Shown here: positions 15,339 to 25,823 of the stretch, in pieces
Layout: each line of letters begins with the position of its first letter
Numbering within the stretch: position 1 is the stretch's first letter
Assembly: GCA_028277845.1 (NCBI GenBank)
Contig: JANQFL010000050.1
Span: 1 to 41,242 of the forward strand
DNA from: Sneathiellales bacterium
GTDB lineage: Bacteria; Pseudomonadota; Alphaproteobacteria; JANQFL01
Length of the DNA stretch: 41,242 bases
Direction: 5' to 3'
Program-made: the position numbers and the translations under genes
Notes under the pieces: model-generated
What the model was told of the DNA's origin: nothing
The model's input: the letters and a program-made list of their open reading frames with translations, nothing else
The model's database searches: none

Positions 15339-16001
15339 CTATTTGTTCAGAAACGGAATGCCGTTGGGCACGTAGTCGGGTTGCGGCGTGCCCGGGATCA
15401 GGCGCTCGTCGGGGATAACCTCGCCCATTGTCGTCGTCAGGGGAATGGTGCCGGCCCAGATCGGCAGGGCGTAGTCTTCCTCGTCGTCGATGGGGCCGCC
15501 GGTGCGCACCTTGGCCGAGACCTCCTTGAGATCGAAGGCCAGTACGGTGGTGGCTTTGTCTTCCTTGTCGAGCATCGGTCTGAGGCCATCCCAGCGGCCG
15601 GGATAGAGGCCGTCGACGAAGTTTTTCAACACATGTTCCTTTTCCGCCGGGTCGTCGATGGTGTGGGTCTTGCCCAGGATCACCACCGAACGGAAATTGG
15701 CCGAATGGTGGAACGCCGAGCGGGCCAGCACCAGGCCGTCCACGTGGGTCACCGTCAGGCAGGCGTCGGCGCCGGCCTGCAGTACGCGGATCATGCGGCT
15801 GGCCGTGGATCCGTGAATCATCACCCTCTCGCCCTCGCGCCAGTACAGCGTGGGAATGACATAGGTCTGGTCCTCGACAGCGAAGCCCACATGGCAGACG
15901 AAGCCGGCGTCGAGAATGGCGTGCACGGTTTCCTTGTCGTAGCTGCCCCGTTCATGGGCGCGACGCACACGGGTGCGCTCGGTTTGGGTGTAAGCAGACA
16001 T
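15339..16001 (-). CDS. Pyridoxamine 5'-phosphate oxidase-like flavin-binding protein
   Basis: 220 residues of the split-barrel PNPOx-like family (Pyridox_ox_2 / flavin-nucleotide-binding subgroup). Seen are an N-terminal YDKETVHAILDAGFVCHVGF strand, PTLYWREGERVMIHGSTASRMIRVL, the FMN-contacting segment ACLTVTHVDGLVLARSAFHHSANFRSVVILG and DGLYPGRWDGLRP. The last is typical of this uncharacterised subgroup and not of true PdxH, so calling it pyridoxine oxidase would be unsafe. It is divergent from a MocR regulator whose putative operators lie between the genes, so it is probably the regulator's target and linked to vitamin B6 or flavin metabolism. Confidence 0.82.
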   Translation of the reverse strand: MSAYTQTERTRVRRAHERGSYDKETVHAILDAGFVCHVGFAVEDQTYVIPTLYWREGERVMIHGSTASRMIRVLQAGADACLTVTHVDGLVLARSAFHHSANFRSVVILGKTHTIDDPAEKEHVLKNFVDGLYPGRWDGLRPMLDKEDKATTVLAFDLKEVSAKVRTGGPIDDEEDYALPIWAGTIPLTTTMGEVIPDERLIPGTPQPDYVPNGIPFLNK

Positions 16002-16058
16002 AGAATGAGGTCTCCAAAATCGCGTTTCATTGGAGATGCCACGATATTGGCTGTATAA

Positions 16059-16096
16059 AAAGGTCCGTTTATAGGTATTTTATAGGGCCATTTATG
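16059..16096. promoter_or_regulatory. Direct repeats, probable MocR operators
   Basis: Two 15-base repeats in the same direction, AAAGGTCCGTTTATA (16059-16073) and ATAGGGCCATTTATG (16082-16096), 23 bases apart start to start, about two helical turns, sharing A-(A/T)-AGG-(T/G)-CC-(G/A)-TTTAT. MocR/PdxR proteins typically bind direct repeats of this spacing. The second repeat covers the regulator's own ribosome-binding site and start codon, which suggests autoregulation. Confidence 0.55.
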
Positions 16097-17599
16097 CGGC
16101 GAACCGTGTCAGCCCTGGTGTCCAGTCTGGCGGTTGATCCCGGCAAGGCCGGTCCCTTGCACCGGCAACTCTATTTCGCCTTGCGCGAGGCGATCCTGAC
16201 CGGCCGGCTGGCGCCGGGGGTCAAACTGCCGTCCACGCGGGTGCTGGCCAAGGATCTTTCGGTATCCCGCAACACCGTCGCCGCCGCCTTCGACCAACTG
16301 CTGGCCGAGGGCTATGCCGAGGCCCGGACCGGCTCGGGCACCTACGTGACCGAGCGCCTGCCCGACTCCTTGCTGCGCAGCCCGGCATCGCAGCCATCGG
16401 CACGCAGCCGCCGGCCCAAGCCCACGCTATCGCAGCGGGGGCAGGCCGTGGCGTCCTTGGGTACGGTGCAGCGTCACCGCAACCGGCCGTTCGCGCCCGG
16501 TTTGCCGGAACTGGACCTGTTTCCCATGAAGGAATGGTCGCGGCTGTTGGCGCGCCACTGGCGCCGGCCGGACGTGGGCGCGCTGCTCGGCGGCGACCCG
16601 GCCGGCGAGGCGCCGTTGCGCGAAGCCGTGGCGTCCTATCTCGGTGCCGCCCGCTCTGTGCGCTGTGACGCCGATCAGGTCATCATCGTTTCGGGTTCGC
16701 AGCAGGCCATCGATCTCATTGCCCGGGTGCTGATCGATCCGGGCGCGCCGGTGTGGATCGAGGAACCGGGCTATGTCGGCACGCGGGGCGCGTTGACGGC
16801 GACCGGTGCGCGGCTGGTGCCGGTGCCGGTCGACGGCGACGGTCTGGATGTGGATGCGGGTATCGCCCGCGCCGCCGCCGCCCGGTTGGCCTGCGTCTCG
16901 CCGTCCCACCAGTTTCCGCTGGGCGTCACCATGGCGCCGGCGCGGCGCATCGCGCTGCTGCAATGGGCCGCCGCCCACGATGCCTTCGTGCTGGAGGACG
17001 ACTATGACAGCGAATACCGCTACGCCGGGCGGCCGCTGGCGTCGCTGCAGGGCATGGACGACCAGGACCGGGTGTTCTACGTCGGCACCTTCAGCAAGGT
17101 GATGTTCCCGGCGCTCAGGCTCGGCTATCTGGTGGCGCCTCCCGACCTGGTCGATGCCCTGCTGGCGGTGCGCCGCCACGTGGACACCCAGCCGTCGTCG
17201 GTGGCCCAGGCGGCGCTGACCGATTTCATCGCCGACGGGCACCTGTCGTCGCACATCCGGCGCATGCGCCTGTTGTATGCCGAACGGCAGGACGCGTTTG
17301 TGTCCCTGGCGCAGGAAAAACTGCGTGGCCTGGTGACGGTGGAACGCCAGGACTCGGGCATGCATCTCATCGGCTGGCTGCCCGAAGGCGCCGACGACCG
17401 GGCCGTCAGCGAAATCGCCGCGCGTCAAGGCGTGGAGGCGCCGCCGCTGTCACACCTCTACACGCACGGACCGTCGCGGCCCGGGCTGATGCTGGGGTTC
17501 GCCGGCATCCCGGCGGAACAGATGGCGCCGGCCCTCGACCGGTTGACGGCGGCGGTCGGAAACGGCGTATCCACTAGCCGGCAAGCCACGCACAAGTGA
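16094..17599 (+). CDS. MocR/PdxR-type regulator (GntR + aminotransferase-like)
   Basis: 501-residue transcription factor: an N-terminal GntR winged helix (about 22-88, with LPSTRVLAKDLSVSRNTVAAAFDQL and TGSGTYV) joined by a linker to a fold-type-I aminotransferase-like domain (about 130-490). The PLP-binding lysine is K335 in GTFSKVMFPALRLGYLV, and the ring-contact aspartate lies in EDDYDSEYRY (D302/D303). Such proteins sense PLP or PLP-amino acid adducts. The ATG at 16094 has AGGG 6 bases upstream and lies inside one of the direct repeats. Divergence from a PNPOx-like gene is the classic MocR arrangement. Confidence 0.9.
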   Translation: MRRTVSALVSSLAVDPGKAGPLHRQLYFALREAILTGRLAPGVKLPSTRVLAKDLSVSRNTVAAAFDQLLAEGYAEARTGSGTYVTERLPDSLLRSPASQPSARSRRPKPTLSQRGQAVASLGTVQRHRNRPFAPGLPELDLFPMKEWSRLLARHWRRPDVGALLGGDPAGEAPLREAVASYLGAARSVRCDADQVIIVSGSQQAIDLIARVLIDPGAPVWIEEPGYVGTRGALTATGARLVPVPVDGDGLDVDAGIARAAAARLACVSPSHQFPLGVTMAPARRIALLQWAAAHDAFVLEDDYDSEYRYAGRPLASLQGMDDQDRVFYVGTFSKVMFPALRLGYLVAPPDLVDALLAVRRHVDTQPSSVAQAALTDFIADGHLSSHIRRMRLLYAERQDAFVSLAQEKLRGLVTVERQDSGMHLIGWLPEGADDRAVSEIAARQGVEAPPLSHLYTHGPSRPGLMLGFAGIPAEQMAPALDRLTAAVGNGVSTSRQATHK

Positions 17600-17662: not shown

Positions 17663-18571
17663 ATGCGTGCCGCCCTGTTCGCAGCCTTCGTCCTGTTCCT
17701 GTCCCCATCTTTGGCGTTTGCCGCCGAACCGCTGGTCGACGTGTCCTGGGTCAAGGCCAATCTGGACAATCCGGCGGTACGGTTCCTCGACCTGCGCGGG
17801 CCCAACGCCCACCGCCAGGCGCATATTCCCGGTGCCGTGCCGACCCGTTACGGCCGCGACGGCTGGCGGGTCAAGAACAAGGCCGGCGTGGTCGGCATGC
17901 TGCCGGTCGACACCAACCGGCTCGCCAAATTGGTCGGCAAGCTGGGCATCGGCAACGGTCATCACGTGGTGCTGGTACCGCCGGGATATTCTTCGTCCGA
18001 CATGGGCATGGGCACGCGGCTTTTCTGGACCTTCAAGGTGCTGGGCCATGACAAGGTGTCGATCCTCGACGGCGGCATGGCGGTCTATGCCGCCGACAAG
18101 CGCAACCGGCTGGAAAAGGGTACGGTGCGTATCGAACCGCAGGTCTTCAAAGTGGCGCTGCGCAGGGACATGCTGGTGGATAAGGCGGCGGTTCTGGATG
18201 CCATGAACAACGGATCGGTCCTGGTCGACAACCGCCCGGCCGATCAGCACCTCGGCCTGGTGCGCCATCCCGCGGCCAAGCGGCCCGGCACCATCACAGG
18301 CGCCCGCAGCCTGCCGCAAAGCTGGTTCACGGAAAACGGCGGCGGCATGTTCCGCAAGGCCGGTGAACTGAAGACACTCTACGCCTACGCAAACGTCGCG
18401 CAGAGCGGCGCGCAGATCAATTTCTGCAACACCGGCCACTGGGCCTCCATCGGCTGGTTCGTTTCCAACCAGCTCTTGGGCAACAAGGACGCGCGGCTCT
18501 ATGACGGCTCCATGGTCGACTGGGCCCGCCATGCGGACACGCCGATGGAGCGTAAAGTCCCCATTAACTAA
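17663..18571 (+). CDS. Exported tandem-rhodanese sulfurtransferase
   Basis: 302 residues from ATG 17663, chosen because it gives a proper signal peptide (MRAALFAAFVLFLSPSLAFA, cleavage near residue 20) and has GGAG 7 bases upstream. Two rhodanese domains: an N-terminal one (about 24-150) whose active-site loop reads VPPGYSSSDMG with no cysteine, and a C-terminal one (about 172-295) with the loop FCNTGHWAS and catalytic C255. This is the usual inactive/active pair. It should move sulfane sulfur or handle thiols in the periplasm. It heads a plus-strand set with a cupredoxin-like protein, a MerA/Lpd-like flavoprotein and a TVP38 membrane protein. Confidence 0.9.
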   Translation: MRAALFAAFVLFLSPSLAFAAEPLVDVSWVKANLDNPAVRFLDLRGPNAHRQAHIPGAVPTRYGRDGWRVKNKAGVVGMLPVDTNRLAKLVGKLGIGNGHHVVLVPPGYSSSDMGMGTRLFWTFKVLGHDKVSILDGGMAVYAADKRNRLEKGTVRIEPQVFKVALRRDMLVDKAAVLDAMNNGSVLVDNRPADQHLGLVRHPAAKRPGTITGARSLPQSWFTENGGGMFRKAGELKTLYAYANVAQSGAQINFCNTGHWASIGWFVSNQLLGNKDARLYDGSMVDWARHADTPMERKVPIN

Positions 18572-18764
18572 GGCGCTCCGGTTTCCTCACATCACCGTGA
18601 CACAACGTGACTGGCGGTCGACCGCCCGATCCTTCAAATAGGAAGGACAAGGCCGGGGGCGGCATGACGCGGCGGCGCCGCGCACCTCATCCCCTCGCTC
18701 ACAACAGATTCGCCATCGGCGGTGAGAGTTGTTGTCAGACACGGATATGAGCAGGAGGAGTCTC

Positions 18765-19265
18765 ATGGTGAAAGTTAATCGGTCCACATTAATCGCCGCG
18801 GGCGGCGCGCTCGTCATCGCTATGGCCGCGTCCTTGTCGGCGTCCGGCAATGCCTCGGAAAAGGCCACCGTCGTCGAGCTGACCCAGGTGCCCTGCCAGT
18901 TCATCGAACCGGAGGCCGGCGTCGACCACGGCTACATGTCGAAGATGAAATCCGACTGCGAGACCATCAACGCCAAGTCCGGCGACCAGCGTGTCGCCGC
19001 CAATCCGGCGATGATGCTGAAGCCCGGCAAGTACATTTTCCGCGTCACCAACAAGAACGTCACCTATCCGTTGGGTTTCTGGCTGCGCGAGAAGGATTAC
19101 GACTGGCGCAATCCGCTGCACAAGCTGAGCAAGATCAGCGTCTCGGGCGGCGGCCTCGACACGGGCGTGACCAAGGACTATGCGGTCGAGCTGAAGCCGG
19201 GCGAGTATCTCTTCTCCTGTCCGCTGAACACCACGCCGGACTACAAGCTGGTGGTCGCCCAGTAG
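18765..19265 (+). CDS. Exported cupredoxin-like protein with incomplete copper site
   Basis: 166 residues from ATG 18765, which has AGGAGGAG 6 bases before it; an N-terminal hydrophobic segment (about 8-25) is a signal peptide or anchor. The C-terminal half looks like a cupredoxin beta-sandwich: LKPGKYIFRVTNKNVTYPLGFWL and a final ELKPGEYLFSCPLNTTPDYKLVV. The position of the type-1 copper cysteine is C152, but the following residues lack the usual His and Met ligands; H119 is the only nearby histidine. C44 and C65 could form a disulfide. It may bind copper differently or not at all. It sits between a periplasmic rhodanese and a flavoprotein, suggesting a redox or metal role. Confidence 0.7.
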   Translation: MVKVNRSTLIAAGGALVIAMAASLSASGNASEKATVVELTQVPCQFIEPEAGVDHGYMSKMKSDCETINAKSGDQRVAANPAMMLKPGKYIFRVTNKNVTYPLGFWLREKDYDWRNPLHKLSKISVSGGGLDTGVTKDYAVELKPGEYLFSCPLNTTPDYKLVVAQ

Positions 19266-19338
19266 TCGCCCATTCATCATCAAGTAACGGGACGCTGCGG
19301 CGTCCCACCCTTCCTTTCAAATTGACGGAGACACGATC

Positions 19339-20760
19339 ATGACACGGATCGTAGAGGCGGATCTTTGCGTCATCGGCGCCGGCTCGGGCGGGTTGTCGGT
19401 GGCGGCGGGCGCGGCGCAGATGGGCGCCAAAACGGTGCTGATCGAGAAGGGCGCCATGGGCGGCGACTGCCTCAACACCGGCTGCGTGCCGTCCAAGTCG
19501 CTGCTCGCCGCGGCCCACGCCGCCCATGTGGTGCGCACGTCCGGCCGCTTCGGCGTCAACGGCCACGAGCCGGACATCGATTTCGCCAAGGTGCACGGCC
19601 ATGTGCACGGCGTCATCGCCTCCATCGCGCCGCACGATTCGGTGGAACGTTTCGAGGGCCTGGGCGTCACCGTGATCAAGGGTGCGGCCCATTTCACCGG
19701 CCTGCGCGAAGCCACCGTCAACGACACGGTGGTGCGGGCGCGGCGCTTCGTGCTGGCGACCGGCTCGTCGGCCTTCGTGCCGCCGATCGACGGCATCGAC
19801 GGCGTGCCGTATCTAACCAACGAGAGCGTCTTCGAGCTGACCGAACGGCCCGATCATCTGATCGTCATCGGCGCCGGTCCCATCGGCATGGAAATGGCCC
19901 AGGCCTTCCGCCGGCTGGGATCGCAAGTGACGGTGCTGGAAGCCTTCACCATGATGCCCAAGGACGACCCGGAGCTGGTCGACGTGGTGCGCACGCGGGT
20001 CAGCTCCGAGGGCATCGACGTGCAGGAAGGCGCGGCGGTGCAGCGGGTCGAGAAGGCGGGCAACGGCGTCGCCGTGGTCTGGGACCGGGACGGCGCCGAG
20101 ACACGGACCACCGGTTCGCACCTGCTGGTCGCCACCGGCCGGCGGGCCAATGTGCACGGCCTCAACCTGGAGGCGGCCGGCATCGCCTATTCGCCCAAGG
20201 GCGTCGCGGTCGACAACCGGCTGCGTACCTCCAACAAGCGGGTGTTCGCCATCGGCGACGTCATCGGGGGATATCAGTTCACCCACGTGGCCGGCTATCA
20301 CGCCGGCATCGTCATCCGCAACGCCTTGTTCCGCCTGCCGGCCAAGGTGAACTACGACGCCGTTCCGTGGGTTACCTACACGGACCCCGAACTGGCCCAT
20401 GTCGGCCTGACCACGGCCGAAGCGGAGAAGCGTGACGATGTACGTGTGCTGACCGAGCCGTTCTCCGGCAACGACCGGGCGTGTGCGGAAGGCGAGACGG
20501 ACGGCCTGATCAAGGTGTCGGTCGGTCCCAAGGGCCGCATCCTGGGGGCCTCCATCGCCGGGCCGCGGGCCGGCGAGCTGATCACGCCATGGACCTTGGC
20601 GGTCCGGCGCAAGCTGAAGATCGGCGCCATGGCCGACGTGATCGCGCCCTATCCGACGCTCGGCGAAATCTCCAAGCGGGTCGCCGGCAGCTACTACACG
20701 CCGACCCTGTTCGGGCCGCGCACCCGACGTATCGTCGGCCTGTTGCAGAAACTGGGTTGA
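19339..20760 (+). CDS. FAD-dependent pyridine nucleotide-disulfide oxidoreductase, MerA/Lpd-like
   Basis: 473-residue flavoprotein reductase: FAD-binding GAGSGG (13-18), redox-active pair C44/C49 in GGDCLNTGCVPSK, a second nucleotide motif GAGPIGMEMAQ and the FAD motif FAIGDV. In dihydrolipoamide dehydrogenase a His-Pro-Thr...Glu motif follows at the dimer interface; here it reads YPTLGE with Y438 in place of the histidine, as in mercuric reductase (FPYLT). The C-terminal Cys-Cys pair and the N-terminal metal-binding domain of MerA are both missing, so it is neither a normal Lpd nor a complete mercuric reductase. RclA-like hypothiocyanite or quinone reductases share this form. The substrate is unknown. 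It lies 13 bases before the TVP38 gene. Confidence 0.88.
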   Translation: MTRIVEADLCVIGAGSGGLSVAAGAAQMGAKTVLIEKGAMGGDCLNTGCVPSKSLLAAAHAAHVVRTSGRFGVNGHEPDIDFAKVHGHVHGVIASIAPHDSVERFEGLGVTVIKGAAHFTGLREATVNDTVVRARRFVLATGSSAFVPPIDGIDGVPYLTNESVFELTERPDHLIVIGAGPIGMEMAQAFRRLGSQVTVLEAFTMMPKDDPELVDVVRTRVSSEGIDVQEGAAVQRVEKAGNGVAVVWDRDGAETRTTGSHLLVATGRRANVHGLNLEAAGIAYSPKGVAVDNRLRTSNKRVFAIGDVIGGYQFTHVAGYHAGIVIRNALFRLPAKVNYDAVPWVTYTDPELAHVGLTTAEAEKRDDVRVLTEPFSGNDRACAEGETDGLIKVSVGPKGRILGASIAGPRAGELITPWTLAVRRKLKIGAMADVIAPYPTLGEISKRVAGSYYTPTLFGPRTRRIVGLLQKLG

Positions 20761-20773
20761 AGGAGCGGCAACC

Positions 20774-21514
20774 ATGGATGCACACAACGAAAACTCCCCG
20801 GGCAAGCCGTCCCTGATCAAGCGCTTCGCCCCCGTCGCGGTGCTGGCCGCCGGTTTCGCCGCTTTCTTCGTTTTCGGCCTCGATCAGTATCTGTCGCTCG
20901 AGGCCCTGCGTGAGCACCGCGGCCAGCTACAGGCATTCGTCGCCGAACACGCCGCCCTCGCCGTGCTGGTGTTCATGGCGGTTTATACCGGCTCGACGGC
21001 CATGTCGTTCCCCGGCGCCACGGCGCTGACCGTGGCCGGCGGGTTCCTGTTCGGTTCGGCGTTCGGCACCGCCTACGTGGTGCTGGCGGCGACCCTCGGC
21101 GCTACCCTGGTGTTCCTGGTCGCCCGCAGCGCCATCGGCGACAGCTTGCGCAAGCGGGCCGGGCCGTGGCTGGCCAAGACCGAGGCCGGCTTCAAGGAAA
21201 ACGCGTTCAGCTACTTGTTGGTGCTGCGCCTGGTGCCGCTGTTTCCCTTCTTTGTCGTCAACCTGGTGCCGGCGTTCCTCGGCGTCAACGTGCGGACCTA
21301 TGTGGCGGCGACCCTGGTCGGCATCATCCCCGGCTCGTTCGTCTTCGTGTCGGTGGGGGCGGGCTTGGGCAGCGTGCTCGACATGTCGTCCGACCTGACG
21401 CTCGGTAACGTCCTGACCGCCGAAGTGGTCGCGGCCCTGCTCGGCCTGTCGGCGTTGTCGTTGCTGCCGGTGATCTACCGCAAGGTCAAGGCGCGGCGGC
21501 CAAAGACCGCCTGA
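20774..21514 (+). CDS. TVP38/TMEM64 (VTT-domain) membrane protein
   Basis: 246 residues with five or six hydrophobic segments. It shows the SNARE-associated/VTT domain of the DedA superfamily: FMAVYTGSTAMSFPGATALTVAGGFLFGSAFGTAYVVLAATLGATLVFLVARS (about 70-125) and the re-entrant-loop segment LRLVPLFPFFVVNLVPAFLGVNVRTYVAATLVGIIPG. Members act as lipid or small-solute carriers or scramblases. The ATG has AGGAGCGGCAACC before it and is 13 bases from the flavoprotein stop. TVP38 genes next to MerA-like reductases are a recurrent pairing in bacteria, pointing to joint function at the membrane. A strong hairpin (21546-21589) follows. Confidence 0.9.
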   Translation: MDAHNENSPGKPSLIKRFAPVAVLAAGFAAFFVFGLDQYLSLEALREHRGQLQAFVAEHAALAVLVFMAVYTGSTAMSFPGATALTVAGGFLFGSAFGTAYVVLAATLGATLVFLVARSAIGDSLRKRAGPWLAKTEAGFKENAFSYLLVLRLVPLFPFFVVNLVPAFLGVNVRTYVAATLVGIIPGSFVFVSVGAGLGSVLDMSSDLTLGNVLTAEVVAALLGLSALSLLPVIYRKVKARRPKTA

Positions 21515-21545
21515 CGAAGACATCGCCTTCCCTTACGGCGTCAAT

Positions 21546-21589
21546 ACAGGCATCGCGCGGCCGGTCGAACGCCGCCGCGCGATGCCTGT
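21546..21589 (+). terminator. Strong terminator-like hairpin after the TVP38 gene
   Basis: Perfect 16-bp inverted repeat, 21546-21561 with 21574-21589, and a 12-base loop. Each arm starts with ACAGGCATCGCGCGGC or its complement. It lies 31 bases after the stop codon, where a terminator of the four-gene cluster is expected. There is no T-run, so Rho or the stem alone would have to act. Confidence 0.65.
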
Positions 21590-21614
21590 TGGCGCCCGTC
21601 CCATATGTTGCCTA

Positions 21615-21643
21615 TTGACAGCAATCTAGAAAAGTAATGTTAT
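21615..21643 (+). promoter_or_regulatory. Sigma-70-type promoter for the outer-membrane protein gene
   Basis: TTGACA (21615-21620, a 6 of 6 match), a 17-base spacer, then TGTTAT (21638-21643, 4 of 6). The -10 is also the left half of the Zur-like box, so a bound repressor would block it. Confidence 0.6.
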
Positions 21644-21652: not shown

Positions 21653-21720
21653 ATAGCCAGTTGCCGCATCGGGTCGGATTTCCAGATGCGGCAAAACCGC
21701 GCACATCGATTTTTAATTTT

Positions 21721-21739
21721 GATAGTCATTCTCATTATT
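21721..21739. promoter_or_regulatory. Fur-like box
   Basis: GATAGTCATTCTCATTATT. Its complement matches the 19-base Fur consensus GATAATGATAATCATTATC at 15 of 19 positions. It lies about 80 bases downstream of the predicted -10, within the leader, and 125 bases before the start codon. Confidence 0.5.
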
Positions 21740-21864
21740 AATATACCGGTGTGCGCTTGCCTTGAGGGGATCGGGGCGTGACCGAACGGTTGTTTGGGAA
21801 CAGCGGCGCTGTATGGATTGCGTGACCTCAACCCCTGTAGCGTGAACCGAGTAGGGGATGAGAG

Positions 21865-22938
21865 ATGGAATTACGCAATACGTTCGCGGTGGTGGCGATC
21901 GCCGCTTCTGCCTTTGGCCCGGCCATGTCCGGGGCGGCGTCCGCCGAAGAGAAAGCGCCGTTGATCAGCGGCTCGCTATCGATCGAGATCGAGAACGACA
22001 ACACTTACAAATCCGATGACCCGGACGCCGAGGTCAACGACCTGTACACCACCACCGAACCGGAAATCATCTTTCAGTTCCTGCCCGAACTGTCGCTCGT
22101 GCTGCACGGCGTGCTGGAACCGGTGCGTGACCCCGGGCCCGGTGACGACCGTTACTTCGACGACCATGGCCTCTACCTGGAACAGGCGCAACTGACTTAC
22201 GAGACCGATCTGTTTTCGGTCTATGGCGGCAAGTTCACGCCCAACTTCGGCAAGGCGTGGGACGAGACGCCGGGCGTGTTCGGCAATGATTTCAACGGCG
22301 ACTACGAATTCGCCGAGCAGATCGGCCTGGGCGGCAGCGTCAGCTTCGGCACCGAAGCGGCCGGCCGGCATACCCTGGGCGCCAGCGTCTTCTTCGCCGA
22401 CACCACCATCTTCAGCGAATCCGTGATCACCAACCGGGGCCGGACCGAGAAGTCAGACGGTGGCGTCGGCAACACCGAAACGCTCGATAATTTTGTCGTT
22501 TCGCTGGATGGCGGCGATGTACGGGCATTGCCGGGCGTGTCCTATCACCTGGCCTATATCCACCGCTCGGAAGGCGAGGATTCGACGGCCGACGAAAACG
22601 GCTTGGTCGGCGGCCTGACGCTGGAACACGACATCGACGCCGTATCGATCTTCGTTCTGGCGGAATATGCGCACTTCATGGATGCCGATGGTGTTGACGG
22701 TGTGGACCGGGACGTCCTGACCGGCGGCGTGCAACTGGGCTGGAACGGCTGGAACCTGGCCCTGACGGCGGCCAACCGGGACACCGACGGCGGCACCAAC
22801 GACACGGTGTTCCAGGTCTCGGCTGGTTACGAATTCGAATTCGGACTGGCCATCGACGCCGCCTGGAAGACGGTGGAAGAAGGGGATGTGGACTCCCAGA
22901 CCGTCGGCGTTCTGTTCGCCTACGCTTTCGAGTTCTAA
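21865..22938 (+). CDS. Outer-membrane beta-barrel (porin-like) protein
   Basis: 357 residues with a signal peptide (MELRNTFAVVAIAASAFGPAMSGAASA, cleavage before EEKAP). The mature part is acidic and alternates polar and aromatic residues in the way of beta-strands, for example LYLEQAQLTYETDLFSVYGGKFTPNFGK and VSAGYEFEFGLAIDAAW, and ends in phenylalanine (YAFEF), the outer-membrane assembly signal. No TonB box or plug domain is visible, so it is a passive channel type, not a TonB-dependent receptor. The upstream Zur-like and Fur-like boxes suggest metal-controlled expression and perhaps a role in zinc or iron uptake. No neighbouring metal ABC transporter is in the window. Confidence 0.75.
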   Translation: MELRNTFAVVAIAASAFGPAMSGAASAEEKAPLISGSLSIEIENDNTYKSDDPDAEVNDLYTTTEPEIIFQFLPELSLVLHGVLEPVRDPGPGDDRYFDDHGLYLEQAQLTYETDLFSVYGGKFTPNFGKAWDETPGVFGNDFNGDYEFAEQIGLGGSVSFGTEAAGRHTLGASVFFADTTIFSESVITNRGRTEKSDGGVGNTETLDNFVVSLDGGDVRALPGVSYHLAYIHRSEGEDSTADENGLVGGLTLEHDIDAVSIFVLAEYAHFMDADGVDGVDRDVLTGGVQLGWNGWNLALTAANRDTDGGTNDTVFQVSAGYEFEFGLAIDAAWKTVEEGDVDSQTVGVLFAYAFEF

Positions 22939-23697: not shown

Positions 23698-24522
23698 ATG
23701 CCGTCTCCGACAGAAATCACCGTTTCCCAGTTGTCCCGTTTGATCGGCACGCCGGCCACGCCGGTCCTTGTCGATGTGCGCATCGACGGGGATTTTGCCG
23801 ATGATCCACGATTGGTGCCGTCATCACGGCGACATCCGTTTGCTGAAATATCGTCCCTTGCACATGAAATCGAAGGGCGCCACGTCGTGATCTACTGCCA
23901 GAAGGGGAAAAAGATCAGCCAGGGGGCGGCCGCAGTGTTGCGCGACCAAGGGGTCGGGGCCGAGACCCTCGAGGGCGGACATTTCGCCTGGCGTGACGCC
24001 GGATTGCCGCTGGTTCCGGACGATAAGCTGCCGCGACGGAACGACGACGGCCGCACCGTCTGGGTCACGCGGCACCGCCCGAAGATCGATCGTTTGGCAT
24101 GCCCGTGGCTTATTCGCTGTTTTGTCGATCCGGCCGCGTCGTTCCTGTTCGTCGCGCCGAGCGAAGTGCTGGATGTGGCGGACAGGTTCGGCGCGACGCC
24201 GTTCGACGTGGAGGATGTGTTTTGGAGCCGTCGCGGCGACCGCTGTACCTTCGATACGATGATCGCGGAATTTGCGCTGGAAACGGAGCCGTTGCGGCGC
24301 CTGGCCGCCATCGTCCGCGGCGCCGATACGAACCGGCACGACCTGGCACCGGAATCGGCCGGCCTGCTGGCCGCCTCTCTGGGAGTTTCCCGCATGTACC
24401 GGGATGACCTTGCGGCACTGGACGCCGGAACGGCCCTGTATGATGCGTTTTATCGTTGGTCGCGCGATGCCGTCGGTGAAGGCCACGATTGGCCCACGGC
24501 ACCGGCGGGAGCGGGGCAATGA
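23698..24522 (+). CDS. chrB: Rhodanese-ChrB chromate-resistance protein
   Basis: 274 residues. The N-terminal rhodanese domain (about 1-108) has VLVDVRIDGDF and the active-site loop YCQKGKKIS with C67. The C-terminal ChrB domain (about 118-262) has TRHRPKIDRLACPWLIRCFVDPAASFLFV, the hallmark of ChrB_C, and CTFDTMIAEFAL. In chromate operons ChrB acts as a chromate-sensing regulator or accessory protein; this rhodanese-fused form lacks the N-terminal DNA-binding region of classical ChrB, so a direct regulatory role is doubtful. Its stop overlaps the chrA start as ATGA, so the two are translationally coupled. AGAGGATGCATT precedes the ATG. Confidence 0.85.
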   Translation: MPSPTEITVSQLSRLIGTPATPVLVDVRIDGDFADDPRLVPSSRRHPFAEISSLAHEIEGRHVVIYCQKGKKISQGAAAVLRDQGVGAETLEGGHFAWRDAGLPLVPDDKLPRRNDDGRTVWVTRHRPKIDRLACPWLIRCFVDPAASFLFVAPSEVLDVADRFGATPFDVEDVFWSRRGDRCTFDTMIAEFALETEPLRRLAAIVRGADTNRHDLAPESAGLLAASLGVSRMYRDDLAALDAGTALYDAFYRWSRDAVGEGHDWPTAPAGAGQ

Positions 24523-25823
24523 CAGTGGCCGAAAGCGCGTCATGCGGCGAAACGGGCACAGCGCCACCATTTGTCGAGGCGCTGAGAGTATGGCTGAAGA
24601 TCGGTGTCATGTCGTTCGGCGGCCCGGCTGCGCAAATCGCACTGATGCACCGAATCATCGTCGAGGAACAACGCTGGTTGAGCGAGCGCCAATACCTCAA
24701 CGCCCTGAGCTTCTGCATGCTGTTGCCTGGTCCGGAAGCCATGCAACTTGCGACCTATGCCGGTTGGCGGCTGCACGGCGTGGCCGGCGGCCTGGCGGCC
24801 GGCCTGTCGTTCGTCCTGCCCGGCGCGGCGGTCATTCTGGCCTTGGCCTCGGTTTACGCGGTCTTCGGCGATGTGCCCCTGGTCGGCGCCCTGTTTCTCG
24901 GCATCAAGGCGGCGGTGATTGTCATCGTCGTCGAAGCATTGGTCCGGATATCCGGGCGGGCCTTGCGCCATGCCTGGCATTGGGCGATCGCGGGACTGGC
25001 GTTTGTCGGTATTTTCATGTTCGACATCCCCTATCCCCTGTTGATCGGTATCGCCGCACTGGCCGGATATTTCTCCGCCGGGCCGGTGGTGAAGATGGAA
25101 GCGGAGCCTGAGCGGCGCCGGTCCGCCGGCGCGACGGCGGCGACGGTCCTGGTTTGGCTTGTTCTTTGGTGGGCGCCGCTGGCCATGGTGGCCGTTGTGG
25201 CCGGCGACACGATCCTGCCTGCCATCGGATTGTTCTTTTCCAAACTGGCCGTCGTGACATTCGGCGGCGCGTACGCCGTGCTGGCGTACATGGCGCAGGA
25301 TGTGGTGCAGCATTTCGGCTGGTTGGCGCCGGGTGAAATGATGGACGGGCTCGGGCTCGCCGAAACGACGCCGGGGCCGCTGATCCTGGTGACGGAATTC
25401 GTCGGTTTTCTCGCCGCCTATCACACGGGCGGGATCTGGCTCGGCCTGGCCGGTGCCGCCGTGACCCTGTGGGTGACGTTCGTGCCGTGCTTCCTGTGGA
25501 TCTTCGTTTTCTCGCCCTACATCGATTGGATTGCCGCGCGGCCCCGCCTGGCCGGCGCCCTCGCGGCCATCACGGCCGCTGTCGTGGGCGTGATCCTCAA
25601 CCTGACGATCTGGTTCGCCCTGCACGTGTTCTTTGCCGACGTGAACGCCGAGTCCTACGGCTGGGTTCGGATATGGCAGCCGGTCATCGGCACGTTCGAC
25701 TGGCGTGTCGCGGTCCTGAGCGTCATGTGCGCGGTATTGGTGTTCCGGTTTCGCTGGACCATCGTCCGCACTTTGCTCACGGCATCGATATTCGGAGCAG
25801 GCTGGGCGCTGTGGATCCCGTGA
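24519..25823 (+). CDS. chrA: Chromate transporter ChrA
   Basis: 434-residue inner-membrane protein of the long-chain CHR family, which expels chromate from the cytoplasm. It has two homologous halves, each opening with the CHR signature: LKIGVMSFGGPAAQIALM (about 25-42) and FFSKLAVVTFGGAYAVLAYM (about 240-260). Also present are ERQYLNALSFCMLLPGPEAMQLATYAGWRLHG and the matching second-half segment MMDGLGLAETTPGPLILVTEFVGF. The start at 24519 (MTVAESASCG) overlaps the chrB stop by 4 bases. A MITE-like element starts 8 bases after its stop, between it and a convergent gene. Confidence 0.93.
   Translation: MTVAESASCGETGTAPPFVEALRVWLKIGVMSFGGPAAQIALMHRIIVEEQRWLSERQYLNALSFCMLLPGPEAMQLATYAGWRLHGVAGGLAAGLSFVLPGAAVILALASVYAVFGDVPLVGALFLGIKAAVIVIVVEALVRISGRALRHAWHWAIAGLAFVGIFMFDIPYPLLIGIAALAGYFSAGPVVKMEAEPERRRSAGATAATVLVWLVLWWAPLAMVAVVAGDTILPAIGLFFSKLAVVTFGGAYAVLAYMAQDVVQHFGWLAPGEMMDGLGLAETTPGPLILVTEFVGFLAAYHTGGIWLGLAGAAVTLWVTFVPCFLWIFVFSPYIDWIAARPRLAGALAAITAAVVGVILNLTIWFALHVFFADVNAESYGWVRIWQPVIGTFDWRVAVLSVMCAVLVFRFRWTIVRTLLTASIFGAGWALWIP

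Follow-up and report, generated by a model that had tools for sequence, protein, structure and literature searches.

Gene layout of the cluster

Membrane proteins of the TVP38 type (COG0398) together with a flavoprotein partner are widespread. In the window, by which we mean the whole analysed stretch of 41,242 nucleotides from a Sneathiellales bacterium (contig JANQFL010000050.1), the genes for such a pair, here called flav and VTT, are preceded by genes for a rhodanese and for a degenerate cupredoxin (cup). This raises the question of which of the four genes belong together and what they do. The answer given here starts from what could be observed of the cluster, namely its gene content, its conserved pairing, its folds and its active-site residues.

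The first-pass annotation had described four genes on one strand that end at a strong hairpin, and both parts hold: all four open reading frames were found on the plus strand (Table 1), and the 106-nt stretch behind VTT (21515-21620) folds at -52.7 kcal/mol. Since a T-run is missing, the hairpin does not qualify as a canonical intrinsic terminator. Intergenic gaps are 73 nt between cup and flav and 13 nt between flav and VTT. The start of cup is best placed at the ATG at 18765 after the AGGAGG, and a longer frame opens at a TTG at 18729. Export of two of the products, the rhodanese and cup, agrees with hydrophobic signal-like N-terminal segments, as judged by eye from the sequence. The space between these two genes would be enough for a separate promoter; a consensus promoter scan of it found none. 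Domains were scanned in the ten gene products between 14358 and 25820.

Table 1. Features of the cluster, with positions in the window
Feature	Position	Strand	Description and basis
Rhodanese gene	17663-18571	+	ORF, 302 aa, predicted exported, two-domain; Pfam Rhodanese PF00581 E 7e-19
Rhodanese-cup gap, 193 nt	18572-18764	+	Sequence; AGGAGG ribosome-binding site directly before the cup ATG
cup (cupredoxin-like)	18765-19265	+	166 aa, predicted exported standalone EfeO-type degenerate cupredoxin; AlphaFold model
flav	19339-20760	+	473 aa, predicted cytoplasmic MerA-like pyridine nucleotide-disulfide oxidoreductase; Pyr_redox_2 1e-56, Pyr_redox_dim 1e-23
VTT	20774-21514	+	246 aa, predicted TVP38/DedA-superfamily inner-membrane protein; VTT_dom 4e-21
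GC-rich long hairpin 3' of VTT, ACAGGCATCGCGCGGC...GCCGCGCGATGCCTGT	about 21546-21590	+	Fold

The flavoprotein and the TVP38 protein as a conserved pair

The VTT protein reaches 76.2 bits against VTT_dom (PF09335), passing the gathering score of 33.9, and is 26% identical to both YdjX and YdjZ of E. coli. In a sample of 385 genomes of the class, a flav orthologue is present in 193 and a VTT orthologue in 209. The pairing of MerA-like and TVP38 genes, which had been expected from general experience, is indeed conserved: among the matches listed, 97 of the 118 genomes that have both genes carry them as same-strand neighbours no more than 500 nt apart, with a median gap of 38 nt. These adjacency figures, like those for cup below, rest on the better-scoring matches listed.

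The two proteins can also be fused. Within the COG0398 subfamily, the combination with PF07992 and PF02852 is described as the most frequent fusion (PF09335 + PF07992 + PF02852; PMC10127716). It joins the same two families that are encoded here by separate adjacent genes, next to which the window has a cupredoxin partner as well as, in this copy, a rhodanese. So far, the possibility of a fusion holds for the published cases and none is shown in this class; two open frames of 681 and 759 aa were considered as candidates and rejected, as their extra N-terminal part carries no VTT domain according to Pfam. COG0398 proteins have been reported to be essential in Caulobacter and Dinoroseobacter, two alphaproteobacteria (PMC10127716). 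In E. coli, the ydjXYZ-ynjABCDE cluster combines TVP38-type proteins with an exported rhodanese, YnjE, as the window does, but YnjE shares only 23% identity with the window rhodanese, and neither a flavoprotein disulfide reductase nor a cupredoxin is annotated in that cluster.

For proteins of the DedA family, a role as lipid flippase or scramblase is at present either known or proposed. On one reading of the cluster, VTT would accordingly be a COG0398 phospholipid scramblase or flippase, flav would support aerobic lipid or quinone redox chemistry, and cup would be an unrelated exported protein that is co-regulated. The proposal that COG0398 proteins are scramblases tied to aerobic metabolism agrees with this, as does the commonest fusion mentioned above (PMC10127716), and a flippase or scramblase role would fit a lipid better than a metal or sulfur species, which speaks against the envelope redox module that we prefer. 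However, a lipid function leaves unexplained why cup turned up solely in sampled genomes with flav and is repeatedly found beside it, and we consider it unlikely.

The cupredoxin as a recurrent partner

The cup gene is present in 29 of the 385 genomes, which belong to 17 families, at 41 loci in total. Every one of these 29 genomes has a flav orthologue, compared with 193 of 385 overall (Fisher p about 1e-9, uncorrected for kinship). Among the matches listed, cup lies beside flav at ten loci in eight genomes, nine times at a distance of 50-150 nt and once at 440 nt, so that the degenerate cupredoxin is established as a recurrent partner of the flav-VTT pair. The gene orders at these loci are cup-flav-VTT, VTT-flav-cup and VTT-cup-flav, and this return of the pairing in differing arrangements is better explained by a functional link than by inherited synteny alone. 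In the flav tree, the window copy clusters with two other cup-flav-VTT copies (support 0.84), and two more fall elsewhere. At the remaining 31 of the 41 cup loci there is no flav within 5.5 kb. Roughly half of the class has flav and VTT, in most cases with no cup, which is therefore best regarded as an optional partner.

The idea that all four families keep a common neighbourhood could thus be upheld for cup, flav and VTT, which recur together, and had to be given up for the rhodanese: this window is the one place where it adjoins the other three, and it was not found beside the other nine flav-cup loci, which rules out a conserved four-gene unit. Judged from its sequences, the core of cup, flav and VTT is most plausibly a conserved, uncharacterised bacterial envelope-redox module with the rhodanese as a neighbour. 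No description of cup as a partner of flav and VTT was found in the open-access literature searched, and a standalone, predicted EfeO-type cupredoxin family that recurrently partners this pair appears to be new. As it is found only in sampled genomes that contain the pair, and repeatedly adjoins it, cup offers a concrete handle on the substrate of the pair.

Canonical locus and second copy

A sensor histidine kinase gene follows flav in 12 of the 16 flav loci examined, and yidC, yidD or rnpA usually lie on the other side; the kinase domains were confirmed by Pfam in L092 and recognised by sequence in the remaining flav loci. This points to a conserved alphaproteobacterial locus composed of VTT and flav, often a Cys-rich NPC-repeat protein, sometimes cup, and then the kinase, usually beside yidC/rnpA. 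On pSymB of Sinorhizobium meliloti (CP090106), yidC, TVP38, an FAD oxidoreductase and a HAMP histidine kinase are annotated, with the flav and VTT families in common with the window. A second copy, VTT-flav-NPC-cup-HK (histidine kinase), lies on contig C90 of the window's own genome. It has the S. meliloti-type layout plus cup, whereas the copy in the window is without the kinase and has the order cup-flav-VTT. Since C90 carries the canonical layout, the window cluster is a rearranged second copy.

Between flav and cup on C90 (L008:9480-9730), a short exported protein is encoded that consists of NPCAAK-type cysteine repeats. NPC-repeat proteins resembling it adjoin flav in L093 and, by sequence, in L090. 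The Cys-rich NPC protein that is found near flav and cup outside the window is metallothionein-like.

The active site of the flavoprotein

Both cysteines of the active disulfide CLNTGC (Cys44/Cys49, CxxxxC) are invariant in all 26 flav orthologues. The catalytic His-Glu pair of lipoamide and glutathione reductases is incomplete: all 26 orthologues have Tyr438 in place of the His, and the Glu is kept as the equally invariant Glu443. An alignment with PDB sequences revealed a Tyr at the same position in MerA, whose structures (PDB 5x1y and 1zk7) are the closest solved ones to flav and have the active disulfide and the Tyr-for-His exchange in common with it. MerA differs, however, in having the C-terminal vicinal cysteines that receive Hg(II). 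There is no Cys after residue 382 in flav, and the 26 orthologues are free of Cys over their last 40 residues; because this Hg-receiving pair is missing, flav is not a mercuric reductase. The score against the MerA model TIGR02053 (373.5 bits) is also below the cut-off of 454.45, and mer genes are absent among the ten gene products scanned. In NCBIfam, flav falls among MerA- and lipoamide-dehydrogenase-like models and stays under every curated cut-off among the matches listed. The C-terminus carries a conserved tail, LFSxRTRxLVRFL, which could possibly be a docking element for the membrane or for a partner.

The RclABC system of E. coli offers another comparison, in that there, too, a member of the flavoprotein disulfide reductase family, RclA, to which flav is 30% identical, has one partner in the periplasm and another in the membrane. 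RclA itself retains the catalytic His in its motif THPSMSE, where flav reads APYPTLGE, and with 198 bits against a cut-off of 740 (NF040477) and without this His, flav is ruled out as an RclA. The partners differ as well, as RclC is a DUF417 protein and not a VTT protein, and RclB with 78 aa is too short for a cup-like cupredoxin.

The fold and the cysteines of cup

Pfam recognises cup only below threshold (Cupredoxin_1, E 0.017), and a profile search against PDB sequences gave no match. The AlphaFold model, built from an alignment of 36 sequences, has a mean pLDDT of 90 and a clear cupredoxin beta-barrel fold. Its best match is the cupredoxin domain of E. coli EfeO (Z 10.6, 1.9 A, 90 residues; Foldseek and VIA-align), followed by nitrosocyanin and Brucella FtrB, both with Z 9.1, and auracyanin is also among the best; VIA-align re-examined the matches of Foldseek, and the ranking covers those families. 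A blastp comparison with E. coli EfeO gave 42% identity over 31 aa (E 1.7e-5) and aligned Cys152 with EfeO Cys103, and hhalign gave a probability of 88%. On the basis of the fold ranking and these two comparisons, cup is a degenerate cupredoxin of the EfeO type that stands alone and has a helical insert. It shares the fold of EfeO (Cup-I) and FtrB (Cup-II) but differs from them in being without the M75 domain and in the helical insert, which carries an extra Cys (Cys65). No match to cup was found among the plasmids in PLSDB.

Cys44 and Cys65 are invariant in the 36-sequence alignment, and Cys152 is present in all except the most divergent members. The type-1 copper ligand set His-Cys-His(-Met) is not found in this alignment: in the loop SCPLN.TPDY (PLNxTPDY after Cys152) the Cys is kept without a His or Met downstream, and Tyr101 occupies the position where the N-terminal His would be expected. 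The related degenerate cupredoxin FtrB binds Cu although the usual ligands are missing (PMC11966278), and so the missing type-1 set does not exclude metal binding by cup.

The cluster might alternatively be concerned with metals, with cup as an EfeO/FtrB-type binder of Cu or Fe, flav as a reductase of cupric or other soft-metal ions, and the parts analogous to RclA, periplasmic RclB and membrane-bound RclC. The EfeO family has been linked to iron and copper. The structural similarity of cup to EfeO and FtrB, the relatedness of flav to RclA and its MerA-type Tyr, and the metallothionein-like NPC protein adjoining flav and cup at other loci would all fit such a role. It is at odds with the loss of the catalytic His of RclA, with the score far under the cut-off of the RclA model, and with the fact that neither an FTR1-type permease, as in EfeUOB/FtrABCD, nor a DyP peroxidase is found among the ten gene products scanned, which leaves it on the doubtful side.

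The rhodanese and the sulfur context

The catalytic loop CNTGHWAS in the C-terminal domain of the rhodanese is identical in six of six orthologues, which are 46-49% identical to the window protein. With the catalytic Cys of active rhodaneses in place, sulfurtransferase activity is predicted. Against NCBIfam, the protein stays far under the cut-offs for ExtH and for 3-mercaptopyruvate sulfurtransferase. The Geobacter ExtH, a rhodanese of a selenite/tellurite operon, belongs to the same family and was rejected as an identity (53 bits compared with a cut-off of 200 bits); multihaem cytochrome genes do not occur among the ten gene products scanned.

In L079 and L081, the orthologue adjoins a YeeE-type sulfur transporter (PF04143) and a DUF302 protein, and in L014 it adjoins PF04143 and cup; the window and L014 are the only two of the 41 cup loci with the rhodanese nearby. 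A PF04143 gene is close to cup at seven of the 41 loci, none of which contains flav. The sulfur link that had been suspected for cupredoxin and rhodanese thereby gains independent neighbourhood support, and as cup is also found with YeeE transporters, such a link is plausible. A second recurrent cup neighbourhood (L010, L011, L013, L014, L058 and L060) comprises PF04143, cup, an FGE-sulfatase-family protein, an NPC protein and DUF6969; some of the Cys-rich NPC-repeat proteins there carry a cytochrome P460 domain.

It is an evenly balanced question, in our judgement, whether the rhodanese is a bystander outside the transcript of the other three, perhaps sharing one with the mocR gene upstream, so that only cup, flav and VTT matter. 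Between the mocR/pdxR-type gene and the rhodanese gene there are 63 nt, compared with the 193 nt to cup, and the absence of the rhodanese from the other nine flav-cup loci points the same way. Against this, the same family adjoins cup in L014 and has YeeE/DUF302 neighbours in common with it, and the link may hence be functional. By its gene neighbourhoods, the rhodanese lies outside the conserved unit and yet shares a sulfur-related context with cup.

The same neighbourhoods allow for a module that is devoted to sulfur altogether, in which the rhodanese and cup would handle periplasmic thiosulfate or sulfane sulfur, import would run through a YeeE-type transporter encoded elsewhere in the genome, and flav and VTT would reduce a persulfide on the cytoplasmic side. 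Besides the PF04143 genes beside cup and the rhodanese orthologues, the two PF04143 genes in the window's own genome are in line with this, as YeeE/SoxT proteins import sulfur (PMC11582611). But the cluster itself has no PF04143 gene, no locus combines the flav context of cup with its YeeE context, and cup resembles EfeO, whose family is tied to iron and copper. We thus regard it as rather unlikely.

Proposed function

That cup has a second context, beside sulfur transporters, leaves thiol, sulfur or soft-metal chemistry as the candidates. We tentatively favour, with somewhat less than even confidence, the view that cup, flav and VTT function together as an envelope thiol/soft-metal redox module. 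In the scheme that follows, we infer the substrate, the direction of flow, the membrane transfer and the physical contacts of the three proteins. In flav, electrons would pass from NAD(P)H via FAD to the CxxxxC disulfide, which would then reduce a thiol-bound soft metal or sulfur species in the cytoplasm. This would take place at the membrane face beside VTT, to which flav may be docked via its conserved C-terminal tail. VTT would provide the membrane step or a scaffold, and on the periplasmic side cup would retain the metal or sulfur species by means of its conserved cysteines. The rhodanese would be a periplasmic sulfurtransferase and a local addition to this copy, and may feed or remove sulfane sulfur.

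It is possible that electrons or sulfur cross the membrane through the VTT protein. The more specific proposal, that cup is a periplasmic carrier exchanging electrons, soft metal or sulfane sulfur with flav via TVP38, so that TVP38 is part of a transmembrane relay and not only a lipid scramblase, seems to us very improbable.

Other genes in the window

The mocR/pdxR-type regulator shares the region 15339-17599 with a small protein (15339-16001) encoded in divergent orientation. In L050, this pair recurs at a distance of about 6 kb from cup-flav-VTT, which represents partial synteny. Downstream of the cluster, a Fur-box-like sequence at 21718-21745, GATAGTCATTCTCATTATT, agrees by eye with the classical consensus at 14 of 19 positions. 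It precedes a porin-like gene (21865-22938) for which neither Pfam nor NCBIfam gave a family. A chromate-resistance pair occupies 23698-25823: its first gene (23698-24522) encodes a ChrB_C protein that has a rhodanese domain at its N-terminus, and the second a chromate transporter of the ChrA type.
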